A stretch of 64,000 nucleotides of DNA from a bacterium (GCA_020444065.1 JAHLLQ010000004.1:62001-126000); one strand, 5' to 3'; shown: positions 10,671 to 18,333, counted from the first letter of the stretch. A program made the numbers and translations. Notes: generated by a model not told the origin, from the sequence alone.

Positions 10671-11069
10671 TCAATCTGCCAAGCGACAATTCTCTTCAAA
10701 GAATCGAGCGACATCGTTCTTCTGAAGCTCGCCTCTTGCGACTCCCCAAACCAACTCCTCAAATTCCTCTTCGTCGGCTTCCAGGATCATTCCGTTCAGC
10801 GATAGGAATACGAAGGAACACACGGCGCCGGTTCTCTTGTTCCCATCGATGAAGGGATGATTCGCGACCAAGTGGAACAAGTACGCAGCAGCCATTTCGA
10901 AGACCGATGCATGCAAAGGCGTTCCATCAAATGTGGCCCGAGGCTGCGAAACTGCAGACAGAAGTAGCGATTCATCACGAAGGCCCCCGTCTCCTCCATA
11001 TCGACGAATTTGATCGGCATGAATTTCCAGGACATCATCAACTGTCAAGAATATCAGATCAGGCATCAC
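10671..11069 (-). CDS. doc: Doc/Fic-family toxin
   Basis: A 132-residue protein of the death-on-curing family. The Fic motif HPFIDGNKRTG at about residues 71-81 is intact, with the catalytic His, Asp, Asn and Lys-Arg of Doc-type enzymes; an upstream GGLRDESLLLSAVSQP segment is typical of the family. P1 Doc phosphorylates EF-Tu and stops translation, and that activity is the likely one here. The start overlaps the stop of the antitoxin gene by 4 bp, the usual antitoxin-first order. The gene converges on acyP with a 20 bp gap. Confidence 0.9.
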   Translation of the reverse strand: MMPDLIFLTVDDVLEIHADQIRRYGGDGGLRDESLLLSAVSQPRATFDGTPLHASVFEMAAAYLFHLVANHPFIDGNKRTGAVCSFVFLSLNGMILEADEEEFEELVWGVARGELQKNDVARFFEENCRLAD

Positions 11070-11305
11070 TTGGCGAGATTCTTTAGGGCTTTGCCATACC
11101 GCTTGTTGGCATCTTCGATGGCGGCCCGCACCTTCTTCTTGTGCGCTTCGGCTTCCCTCTTGTTGCGGCGTGGTGATACGATGAGACTGTTCCCATCGGT
11201 CATCAGCTCGAGCTCGGTTTCGGAATCGATGTTGAGAAGATCGAGAATCGGGCGATCGATGATGAGGGCCATACTATTCCCATGGCGGGTCAAAGTCTTA
11301 ATCAT
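11066..11305 (-). CDS. AbrB/MazE-type antitoxin
   Basis: A 79-residue antitoxin. Residues 1-50 (TLTRHGNSMALIIDRPIL then a short beta part with LIVSPRR) form the swapped-hairpin SpoVT/AbrB DNA-binding domain of MazE-like antitoxins; the basic, Lys-rich C-terminal helix is the likely toxin-binding part. I chose the ATG at 11305 because GGAG lies just before it and the domain begins there. It overlaps doc by 4 bp and is preceded by a palindrome at 11329-11347. Doc is usually paired with Phd, but AbrB-type partners are known. Confidence 0.85.
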   Translation of the reverse strand: MIKTLTRHGNSMALIIDRPILDLLNIDSETELELMTDGNSLIVSPRRNKREAEAHKKKVRAAIEDANKRYGKALKNLAK

Positions 11306-11328
11306 GGCTGAGCTCCTTGAGTAGCTTC

Positions 11329-11347
11329 GGATATACAATGTGTATCC
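11329..11347 (-). promoter_or_regulatory. palindromic operator/promoter of the toxin-antitoxin module
   Basis: A 19 bp near-perfect palindrome (GGATATACA, one centre base, TGTGTATCC; 8 of 9 pairs match) lies 24 bp upstream of the antitoxin start. A TTGACC -35 like element on the minus strand at about 11358-11363 would put the -10 inside the palindrome. The layout fits autorepression by the antitoxin. Confidence 0.55.
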
Positions 11348-14894: not shown

Positions 14895-16082
14895 CTATAT
14901 TGTCACCACAAGATCTCCTTGCCCTGCACGTTCCTTGAGCATCGGCGGGAGATCCTCCACCGCATCGCATCCAGTAAGATCCAGATTCCGCAGGGAGCTC
15001 AGTTCGCACAGTGGCGTCAAATCCTGAACGCCCTTGCATCCCCTGAGTGAAATCTCGCTCAGATGCTCCAACTCCACAAGGGGCCCCAAATCACGAATGG
15101 CAACACAGCCGGCGAGGATGAGAGTTCCCAGTGATCTCAGTCCATGCGAGAATCTCAAGTCTTGAACGCTCGTGCAGCCTCCGAGGTTCAATACTCTCAG
15201 CGATTCAAGTGAAGATAGTGGCTCCAGATCTTGCGCCTGCCTGCAACCCCGGAGACTCAATTCTTCAAGCGATTTAAGTTCCGCCAAGGCTCGAAAGTCC
15301 TGTAAACTGGTGCAGCTTCCAATGTTCAGGAATACCAGCGATTCCAGTGCCGCGAGGGGGCCCAGGTTTCCTACCCCAGTGCAGCCTCTCAGGCTCAGCC
15401 AAACGAGGGAAGTCAGTTCCTTGAAAGGGTTCAGCGACCTAATGCCTGTGCAGTCGCTGAGGTCGAGCCACTCCAGTGACTTGAGTCCAGCGAGCGGGCT
15501 CAAATCCTGAACGCTTGTGCAGCCAACGAGGCTTAGTCTTTCCAGTGAATTCAACTCTTCCAGTGGCCACAATTCCTGTATTTTCGTGCATGCGCGGAGA
15601 TCGAGGGTTCTGAGTGAAGTCGCTCCCATCAGAGGATCGAGCTTGCCTAGGAGTCTACACTCCGAGGCGTCCAGGGTCTGCAAGGCAGGCAATTGCTTCA
15701 GGGGTTCGATCGTTGTAACATCCGGTGGGAGGGCAAGCTCTTGGATCTGCTCAAGATCCTGCGATATCACCGGATCCCCGACTGGTTTCATGAGAGCCTT
15801 TCTGAACACCTCCTTGAAGATTTGCTCCTGTTCAGGGTCCAAGTCCCGTCGATGCTGATCAACTCGGGCCTGTTGGAGTTCAAGGGCATCTCTCAAATCG
15901 AGAGTGTGGTAAAGGAGCATAGTCAATCTGTCCACCCGCGGGGAGACGGTTTCGTTCTTTCGATCAGCCAGCCAATCTCCAACATGTGGCGGCCTGTCCA
16001 AGATCGCCTTTAGTTTGCTTGGATAGACTGCATCTGTGCGCCGACCCTTGACGTTTGCGGGCTCAGTATCTCTCTTCTTCAT
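14895..16082 (-). CDS. leucine-rich repeat protein
   Basis: A 395-residue soluble protein. Residues 1-105 are a charged helical domain of unknown type. From about 105 to 385 there are roughly twelve leucine-rich repeats with a 23-residue period, consensus SLxxLxLxGCTxVxDLxPLxxL; the repeats are visible as 69 bp units in the DNA. The repeat type is the cysteine-containing, F-box/BspA-like class. LRR arrays bind proteins. The start overlaps the KAP NTPase stop by one base (TGATG), so the two are co-translated and probably work together. No signal peptide, so it is cytoplasmic. Possible sensor for the NTPase. Confidence 0.8.
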   Translation of the reverse strand: MKKRDTEPANVKGRRTDAVYPSKLKAILDRPPHVGDWLADRKNETVSPRVDRLTMLLYHTLDLRDALELQQARVDQHRRDLDPEQEQIFKEVFRKALMKPVGDPVISQDLEQIQELALPPDVTTIEPLKQLPALQTLDASECRLLGKLDPLMGATSLRTLDLRACTKIQELWPLEELNSLERLSLVGCTSVQDLSPLAGLKSLEWLDLSDCTGIRSLNPFKELTSLVWLSLRGCTGVGNLGPLAALESLVFLNIGSCTSLQDFRALAELKSLEELSLRGCRQAQDLEPLSSLESLRVLNLGGCTSVQDLRFSHGLRSLGTLILAGCVAIRDLGPLVELEHLSEISLRGCKGVQDLTPLCELSSLRNLDLTGCDAVEDLPPMLKERAGQGDLVVTI

Positions 16083-17404
16083 CAGTATTCCTCCGAGTCC
16101 CTCACGGGATCATCCAACTTCTCCTCCCGATTCCATGGCGCCACATCGACCAGAAAGTCCTCCGCTGTTGTGAAGGCATGGCCTTCGCCTCCAAGAAACT
16201 GGATTAGCTTAATCTTCATCAAAAGAGCCTCCCGGACTTGCTCTTCTGGAAGATGCGGGACCTTATTCCCGAACAGGTACGCCTCCATGATCTCGCCATC
16301 ATCGGCTATGCCAAACTCCTGAAGCTCTGTCAGCGTCTGCTCAAGTAGATCGGGCACCAGTTCGATCATGGACTTCTCCATCTCATAGAAGAGCAGAAAT
16401 CTCTTCAATCGCCGCGGATTGTGTTCAGCAAAGGAGCGCAACATGTCCCAACAGAGTTGATTCTCGACGTATTTCTCACATCCCAGTGAAAGCAGTAAGT
16501 GCCTGAAACTGCCCGCGGATACCGGCGGCAGACGGAGCGGTATCTGGACAATCTTCTCCAGATAGACTTGCGCGCCATCATCGCTGACGCCCATTTTCTC
16601 GACGAGACACTCACGAATCCGCCTCGGAGAACATCCCAAGACGTAAATACACTTGTCATTCATTAGGTGGAGTTTGAGAGCTTCCAGGATCTTCACAACG
16701 TACTCGGCCTCACATCGGTCGAGGTCATCGATGAAGATCACGAGTCGATCAGCGCCGACGATGCTCCCAATCAAATCTTCGATGGTCTTTCCGAATGAGC
16801 GATCAAAATCGGCGAAGGCATCCATTACCTCCTTCGCCTTTGTGCCTGCTTGATCCGCGAGGGCACTGAACCAATCTGGCCCTGCAAGCTTTGCCACACC
16901 AAGGCTTGCCTTGCTTAGAATTCGAATGCGGGGGTCCTCCACAAAGTCTCGGAATTTGCCACCGATCTTCGACCATGCGCTTGGTAGCTGGACCCGAATC
17001 GCGTCAAGAAGAGGGAAGATGGGCTCCTCTTCAAACTGGTGCTTCCAAGGATTGAAGAACACGGATGGAATATTGAATGGCTCCCTCGCATCTTCCTTCT
17101 GCATCTTCCGGACGAAGCGTTCGATCGTTGCTTTCGATTCTCTCCAACGTTTGCCGCCTTCATCCGATGTGAAGAGTCTATCTCCCTCCGCCAGATACTT
17201 GTCTCGCTCTTCCGCATCCAGCAGGCGCCCGAGGATCTTCATGAAGCTGGTCTTGCCCTCGCCCCAGTCGCCGTGGATGCCGACGACGAGCGGCGGCTGG
17301 GCGGTGGCGATCACTTCGGCTAGCGAAAGGAGTTGAATCTCGCGTCCCAGCGCATCGAACCCGACCGGTTCATCGCTGCGCGACAGCGGCTTGTTCGTGG
17401 GCAT
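16082..17404 (-). CDS. KAP-family P-loop NTPase
   Basis: A 440-residue NTPase. Walker A is GDWGEGKTS at about 45-53, the KAP marker FFNPWKH at 116-122, and Walker B LVIFIDDLDRCE at 221-232. KAP NTPases are STAND-related, and bacterial members include phage-exclusion proteins such as PifA. Most KAP proteins carry membrane helices between the Walker motifs; none is seen here, so this one is probably soluble. It is co-translated with the LRR gene and divergent from a NERD-domain gene, separated by about 120 bp. A role in defence or stress sensing is inferred from family and context, not shown. Confidence 0.88.
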   Translation of the reverse strand: MPTNKPLSRSDEPVGFDALGREIQLLSLAEVIATAQPPLVVGIHGDWGEGKTSFMKILGRLLDAEERDKYLAEGDRLFTSDEGGKRWRESKATIERFVRKMQKEDAREPFNIPSVFFNPWKHQFEEEPIFPLLDAIRVQLPSAWSKIGGKFRDFVEDPRIRILSKASLGVAKLAGPDWFSALADQAGTKAKEVMDAFADFDRSFGKTIEDLIGSIVGADRLVIFIDDLDRCEAEYVVKILEALKLHLMNDKCIYVLGCSPRRIRECLVEKMGVSDDGAQVYLEKIVQIPLRLPPVSAGSFRHLLLSLGCEKYVENQLCWDMLRSFAEHNPRRLKRFLLFYEMEKSMIELVPDLLEQTLTELQEFGIADDGEIMEAYLFGNKVPHLPEEQVREALLMKIKLIQFLGGEGHAFTTAEDFLVDVAPWNREEKLDDPVRDSEEY

Positions 17405-17526
17405 TCGGCAAACTCCCTGACCCCAAGGGCATCAGTGGTATTGCTAATCGGACGACATTGATGCAATCTGGATACCGAGCGGTTGATGAGGTGTCAAGTC
17501 GCACCCCGGAGGAGGTGTCTCAGACA

Positions 17527-18333
17527 ATGGCGGATTTCTTGGCGGTGCTTGGCTTATTCGCATTCATGGACGTGCTGCTCCTCTGTGTGGCGGGCGCGGT
17601 CCTGTTCCTCTATGCGCTCTTCACGCTCGGGCCTTTGCCCAGCCGCGGCGAAATCGGAGAACAGAGAATTCAGCGGAGGCTAGCCAGATCCCTCGACAAG
17701 AACACCTACCGCGTCTTTCACAACGTCCTCTTGCCAGTGGAGGGGGGGACGACGCAGATCGATCATGTGGTGCTGAGTCCGTTCGGGATCTTCGCAATCG
17801 AGACGAAGAACATGGGCGGCGCGATCTATGGGTCGGAACGCGACCATCAGTGGACGCAGAAGATCGGGCGGCAGACGCACAAGTTCCAGAACCCGCTGCG
17901 ACAGAATCACGGGCACAGGTGCGCGCTGGCTGTTTGTCTCGGCGTGCCGGCGGAGCAGGTCCACTCGATCGTCGCGTTTGTTGGATCCGCGCGGCTGGCG
18001 AAGGGCCCACTGCCTGGCGTGGTGCGAGGGACTCTGGCGTGCGTGCAGGAAATCCGTCGGCATCGCGCCCCGGTGTTTGAACCCGAGCGCGTGGCGGAAC
18101 TGGCAGCGGCGCTCGAGATGGGACGCATCCAGGCTACCCGCGAGGCGATGCGCGATCACACCCGGCGGGTTCAGGAGGCTCGCGCGGCGGCGCCGATCGA
18201 TTCGCAGCCCGTGTGCCCGAAGTGCGGTGGGCGGATGGTGCTGCGGACGGCTCGCCAGGGAGCCAACGCCGGGCGGCAATTCTGGGGCTGCGGGCGGTTT
18301 CCCCAGTGCCGCGGACGCCGGGATATTGCATAG
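17527..18333 (+). CDS. NERD nuclease-related protein with topoisomerase zinc ribbon
   Basis: A 268-residue protein. Residues 1-35 are a membrane anchor. About 40-160 form a NERD domain: GEIGEQRIQRRL, the IDHVVLSPFGIFAIETKN core with catalytic-like Asp and E-x-K, and a following W-T-Q. The C-terminus, CPKCGGRMVLRTARQG then FWGCGRFPQC, is a topoisomerase-type C4 zinc ribbon. NERD is a PD-(D/E)xK-like fold found in DNA-processing and some defence loci. Of the possible starts I prefer ATG at 17527, which has GGAGGAGG 9-11 nt upstream. It is divergent from the KAP/LRR pair. Confidence 0.85.
   Translation: MADFLAVLGLFAFMDVLLLCVAGAVLFLYALFTLGPLPSRGEIGEQRIQRRLARSLDKNTYRVFHNVLLPVEGGTTQIDHVVLSPFGIFAIETKNMGGAIYGSERDHQWTQKIGRQTHKFQNPLRQNHGHRCALAVCLGVPAEQVHSIVAFVGSARLAKGPLPGVVRGTLACVQEIRRHRAPVFEPERVAELAAALEMGRIQATREAMRDHTRRVQEARAAAPIDSQPVCPKCGGRMVLRTARQGANAGRQFWGCGRFPQCRGRRDIA

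Follow-up and report, generated by a model that had tools for sequence, protein, structure and literature searches.

The locus described here lies in a 64,000-nucleotide stretch of bacterial DNA that was analysed as a whole (the window). It consists of a gene for a KAP-family P-loop NTPase and, behind it, a gene for a leucine-rich repeat (LRR) protein, with a NERD-domain gene facing away from the pair and an N-acetylmuramoyl-L-alanine amidase gene, recognised by Pfam, adjoining it (Table 1). The stop codon TGA of the KAP gene and the start codon ATG of the LRR gene have one base in common (..GGAGGAATACTGATGAAG..), just as the first-pass annotation of this DNA had noticed, and a GGAGG Shine-Dalgarno sequence sits inside the 3' end of the KAP gene, directly upstream of the LRR start; the overlap and the internal Shine-Dalgarno sequence mark the two genes, by all that their sequence indicates, as translationally coupled. 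The GC content of the KAP and LRR genes is 54%, as against 65% in the flanking amidase and NERD genes, and their GC3 is lowish within the window (z -1.3 for KAP and z -2.2 for LRR), which is a weak hint of acquisition. The amidase gene is conserved in the family, where the LRR, KAP, NERD and next genes do not stand beside it, so that there is no clean empty site. Elsewhere in the window (10671-11338), a gene for a Fic/Doc protein and an overlapping small upstream gene of the AbrB/SpoVT antitoxin-like type, with GC below that of their flanks, form a probable toxin-antitoxin pair.

Table 1. Features of the KAP-LRR locus, in window positions
Feature	Position	Strand	Basis
Soluble P-loop NTPase of the KAP family (440 aa), encoded by the first of the two genes	16082..17404	-	ORF, Pfam, AlphaFold
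LRR protein, 395 aa; candidate sensor	14895..16082	-	ORF, Pfam
Stop/start overlap TGATG, with one base (16082) in common	16080..16084	-	Sequence
Divergently encoded protein with a NERD domain, a topoisomerase-type zinc ribbon and a hydrophobic segment at its N-terminus; judged to lie outside the system	17527..18333	+	Pfam, hydropathy

The KAP protein matches KAP_NTPase (PF07693) over residues 27-313 (E 2.9e-31; 109.3 bits against a gathering cut-off of 20) and carries the Walker A motif GDWGEGKTS and the Walker B motif LVIFIDDLDRCE that had been read from it before, the key residues of both being invariant across a 34-sequence KAP alignment (A3). Its maximum Kyte-Doolittle hydropathy is 1.58, which indicates a soluble protein, and its other Pfam match, to AAA_16, is only sub-threshold. 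In contrast, its earlier description as a STAND-type NTPase was not borne out, because Pfam gives KAP_NTPase and no STAND, NACHT or AP-ATPase domain, and neither protein of the pair has a NACHT or NB-ARC match in Pfam. The AlphaFold model (pLDDT 82) found the RdrA chains of RADAR as its top solved matches in Foldseek (E 3e-6, probability 1.00), with a TM-score of about 0.42, a likeness that, as modelled, is at superfamily level; a sequence search of solved structures found no KAP relative. By Pfam, the KAP protein is thus outside the STAND class, and its predicted fold is nearest to that of RdrA, an AAA+ ATPase. Among profiles of known defence proteins, the PADLOC KAP model PDC-S20 matched it partially (E 1e-28, best stretch 68-283 of the 464 profile positions), and the QatA model of NCBIfam gave 85.8 bits against a cut-off of 600. 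With the window KAP as query, there was no match in the 11 other genomes of the order and, with this single sequence, no close homologue in viral contigs. The window genome has a second, stand-alone KAP NTPase (L046 5714-7576, contig C1), which has a hydrophobic segment (Kyte-Doolittle 2.33) and resembles Tmn and other membrane KAPs.

The LRR protein matches Pfam LRR_4 (E 3e-32) and has no evident signal peptide. About twelve 23-residue repeats had been claimed for it, and we counted eleven and a partial twelfth between residues 120 and 385 approximately; they are regular, and the frame is open through 260 residues. The DNA identity between repeats is only about 49% on average, indicating that the LRRs are old, and a recent expansion of the repeats was rejected on this figure. 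No homologues were detectable for the first 110 residues. Since this region has no similarity to the NACHT-LRR profile, whose match is confined to the LRR part, we also rejected the idea that the protein is a truncated NACHT-LRR protein with a NACHT remnant. The best relative of its LRRs among those found is the LRR region of a KAP-LRR fusion (L207; 38% identity over 240 residues, E 4e-46). Another genome of the same family (L043, G002:C155) encodes very large LRR proteins in frames of about 1200 residues, with no KAP gene near.

When viral contigs and the genomes of 85,000 species were scanned with a profile, at least 110 KAP loci were listed, the genome part of which comprises the best 80 loci and is a homology-ranked sample rather than a census. 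In at least 28 of the 110 loci listed, the KAP gene is followed, at a distance of -143 to +22 nt and often with an ATGA overlap, by a gene whose product has a NACHT domain (profile E 1e-23 to 1e-109); L067 was included in this number, though its ORF limits are unclear, because a NACHT match is present in an overlapping frame extending upstream. Of the 28 partners, 15 are NACHT-LRR proteins, eleven of them verified by Pfam, and the remaining 13 have C-terminal regions that Pfam did not recognise where they were scanned, or are cut by a contig end (L083). The hosts include members of the Spirochaetota, Pseudomonadota, Planctomycetota, Armatimonadota, Acidobacteriota, Nitrospirota, Thermodesulfobacteriota and Hydrogenedentota. 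When all neighbours were compared with one another, KAP and NACHT were the sole genes conserved throughout these loci, and no conserved third gene was found beside them. The structural model of one NACHT-LRR partner (L070, pLDDT 84) matched NLRC4, NLRP14, NLRP3, NOD2 and NLRP9 near full length in Foldseek (E 1e-19 to 1e-15), with TM-scores of about 0.3-0.46 to those NLRs and many LRR-only matches besides; by their domains and by this model, the 15 NACHT-LRR partners qualify as true bacterial NLRs. Three NACHT partners were compared with the models of PADLOC 2.0.0, and none of the three was matched. Because the L070 protein has only a short region N-terminal to its NACHT domain, with no recognised effector domain, the output is most naturally sought in the KAP protein.

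Compared with these relatives, the window pair likewise has coupled KAP and LRR genes, but its LRR protein is without NACHT; it is a NACHT-less version of the pair, in which KAP is the sole NTPase. The NLR logic that the first-pass annotation saw in it is therefore literal for the relatives, in which the KAP partner is a NACHT-LRR protein, but not for the window proteins, which have neither NACHT nor NB-ARC and carry NTPase and LRRs on separate ORFs. The KAP-LRR association itself, which comprises the 28 coupled KAP-NACHT(-LRR) pairs among the matches listed and five fusions, is not confined to one genome, although the exact NACHT-less two-gene form was seen, among the matches listed, in the window genome only. 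Its recurrence in unrelated genomes is well beyond chance and supports the view that KAP and LRR proteins, when paired, make up a functional unit that recurs.

The five fusions (L050, L119, L126, L128 and L207) combine KAP and LRRs in a single chain without NACHT, the L207 protein coming from the same class as the window. In the trees, they are divided between two separate clades of KAP. The window KAP, on a long branch and with no more than 35% identity to any relative among the matches listed, joins the KAPs of the NACHT-coupled and Actinokineospora types (SH-aLRT 95-96). For the window KAP and the NACHT-coupled clade by themselves, the support is 88 (unstarred). Formally, a clade that unites the window KAP with the LRR-fused KAPs withstands the AU test (p 0.13), but profile scores (158-163 bits vs 97) back the grouping with both the NACHT-coupled and the Actinokineospora types. 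Given the two fusion clades and the separate position of the window KAP, the joining of KAP to LRRs would have taken about three or four separate events. The Actinokineospora KAPs (L059 and L065), which are nearest to the window KAP by score among the matches listed, are encoded directly 3' of a gene for a UvrD helicase plus PD-(D/E)XK nuclease. Other sensors are found as well: KAP is fused or coupled to FGE-sulfatase domains in about 15 loci among the matches listed, and in a genome of the window's class (L052 7934-10128, G017) the KAP gene overlaps the gene of an FGE-sulfatase-domain protein (ATGA), which is another KAP-sensor pair. A helical region of the L207 fusion matches the linker of this FGE protein (E 2e-7), a likeness that suggests swapping of sensors on a common scaffold. 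Further arrangements include a KAP gene overlapping that of a HEAT-repeat protein (L202 5226-8496, G307), a KAP gene followed by genes for a 225-aa protein and a 1484-aa TPR protein (L206 1416-7762, G307), both NACHT-less, and a KAP gene followed by that of a protein with a match to the C-terminal domain of DISARM DrmE (L208 138-4164, G083; E 9e-10).

A neighbourhood of defence genes, which the first-pass annotation had suggested looking for, was found for the relatives but not for the window. Three prophage-like viral contigs (L141-L143) have the order integrase, KAP, NACHT-LRR, with 31-66 bp between integrase and KAP; in L142 the NACHT-LRR gene is followed by excisionase, repressor and CII genes, the gene in the excisionase position being common to all three, and a fourth locus (L144) adjoins tail and spanin genes. 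Anti-phage gene hotspots are known in P2-like phages and satellites (PMC9122126). The genes flanking 19 chromosomal KAP-NACHT loci, surveyed with no random-locus baseline, include strong matches to DISARM DrmA, type III restriction, DpdE, IetA and ZorD-like proteins. In the window, the 42 other genes tested gave only generic helicase-type and sigma-54-activator matches (E 1e-10). The window is thus no defence island itself, nor was any prophage gene recognised next to the pair. No joint KAP-LRR match was found on plasmids or annotated phages, and a DNA search of E. coli genomes gave no match.

Bacterial NLRs, or bNACHT proteins, are reportedly anti-phage proteins (Kibby et al. 2023, as cited in PMC12169576). 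The window pair has in common with them an LRR sensor and a P-loop NTPase switch, and its relatives' KAP partners are themselves NACHT-LRR proteins, which that group is reported to term bona fide bacterial NLRs; however, the NTPase of the window is KAP and not NACHT, with sensor and switch on separate polypeptides, and in the relatives the NLR is coupled to a KAP gene, an arrangement of which we found no description in the literature searched. QatA is also a KAP ATPase within a defence operon and is heptameric or octameric and DNA-binding (PMC13279940), but amidase and NERD genes instead of QatB, QatC and QatD flank the window pair. A complete QatABCD, with QatA as KAP, QatB, a QueC-like QatC and a TatD-like QatD, occurs in the window's class (L047 274-5113, G028), its KAP being in a clade separate from that of the window KAP. 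The top Foldseek match ties the window KAP to RADAR, but at a TM-score of about 0.4 this is superfamily likeness only, and no RdrB-like deaminase gene was recognised beside the pair. Tmn is an anti-phage KAP NTPase with two transmembrane segments (PMC11846954); the KAP P-loop domain, tied to phage exclusion in Tmn and PifA, is the common feature here, whereas the window KAP is soluble. It is also known that KAP takes the place of STAND in conflict systems (PMC8195603) and that it occurs with DGR-diversified lectin/FGE sensors (PMC10907252). The use of KAP in STAND's stead with an interchangeable sensor, and the KAP-FGE fusions, agree with these systems, but the sensor in the window is an LRR protein. 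KAP in Qat and Tmn, with lectin or FGE sensors and in place of STAND is therefore already known; no description of KAP-LRR or KAP-NACHT-LRR was found in the open-access papers searched, and we regard the novelty of the pair as provisional.

We lean towards the interpretation that the pair is one NLR-like surveillance module divided over two polypeptides, and we consider an anti-phage function rather probable. Recurrence across bacteria, usually with an NLR-like receptor and sometimes in phage genomes, probably points to an anti-virus alarm. A KAP protein with a sensor might instead serve non-immune signalling or housekeeping, such as stress sensing, a task in the cell envelope or a regulated cell death that has no link with phage. 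Neither LRR nor KAP domains are restricted to defence, and the pair lies outside any defence island, next to an amidase gene. Nevertheless, we think this unlikely in view of the sparse distribution of the KAP gene in the order, the GC of the pair below its flanks, the relatives in prophage integrase slots and near defence genes, and the characterised roles of the KAP proteins QatA and Tmn in defence. It is also conceivable, though quite improbable, that the pair is a decayed KAP-NACHT-LRR system, in which a deletion took the NACHT part and the LRR remnant and KAP persist without full function. The position of the window KAP beside the NACHT-coupled clade fits such a history, as does the NACHT in all other two-gene KAP and LRR pairs (15 of 15 among the matches listed); a search of the window genome with a profile of that partner (A5) found no NACHT protein of this type. 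However, neither ORF is disrupted, the coupling between them is clean and has its Shine-Dalgarno sequence, the catalytic motifs of KAP are kept, the LRRs are regular in an open frame, the 110-residue N-terminal region is unlike the NACHT-LRR profile, and intact KAP-LRR fusions exist that also do without NACHT.

The first-pass annotation had taken the NERD gene for the nuclease effector of the same system. It was right about the gene, which has both domains that were named (NERD, PF08378, E 1.7e-31; Zn_ribbon_Top1, E 3.6e-9) and begins, in the other direction, 122 bp from the KAP gene if the ATG at 17527 is used, or 53 bp if the alternative TTG at 17458 is used. Its role as an effector is not supported: the window NERD protein as query found no match in the 110 KAP loci, and although 15 of the 27 genomes in which a pair or fusion occurs also have NERD genes, contig numbers and coordinates placed none of these at the pair. 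The N-terminus is hydrophobic (Kyte-Doolittle maximum 2.65 at residue 16) and is probably a transmembrane segment that anchors the protein in the membrane, and the GC of the gene is like that of the host and flanks (65%, as against 54% in KAP and LRR). Therefore, despite the divergent layout at short distance and the NERD domains found in the defence proteins PglW and MAD6, a three-gene system seems highly improbable with an uncoupled, membrane-anchored partner on the opposite strand for which no counterpart was found at the 110 KAP loci, and we judge NERD, on this comparison, to be outside the KAP-LRR system.

In the two-polypeptide module that we favour, the LRR solenoid would be the arm that binds a ligand and the soluble KAP ATPase would be the switch, so that ligand on the LRRs frees KAP to bind ATP. 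ATP-bound KAP may then assemble into a ring, perhaps heptamer-like by analogy with QatA and RdrA, and this ring would block the infection; its means would probably be the death or arrest of the cell, or an attack on nucleic acid. For most of the relatives, the NACHT-LRR protein would be the sensor and oligomeriser and KAP the coupled output ATPase, whereas in the window, which has no NACHT, the LRR protein would feed KAP directly, like the single-chain KAP-LRR fusions. More tentatively, KAP ATPases may constitute an undescribed class of NLR-like immune receptors in prokaryotes, the KAP ring acting either as the NTPase of an LRR receptor directly or as the dedicated output partner of a NACHT-LRR protein, with LRR, FGE, HEAT and TPR sensors exchanged repeatedly on one kind of ATPase.

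Bacterial NLRs are mostly viewed as single proteins in which receptor and effector are fused. The present loci differ from this picture in that an NLR with no recognised effector domain is coupled with a KAP ATPase on a chain of its own, in several phyla and in prophages, and KAP itself fills the place of the NTPase in the window and in the fusions. LRR sensing would thus have been joined to a non-STAND ATPase on about three or four occasions, and the KAP partner may be the place to look for the effector that seems to be missing from some bacterial NLRs. The window pair offers a compact two-gene system that is open to anti-phage testing.
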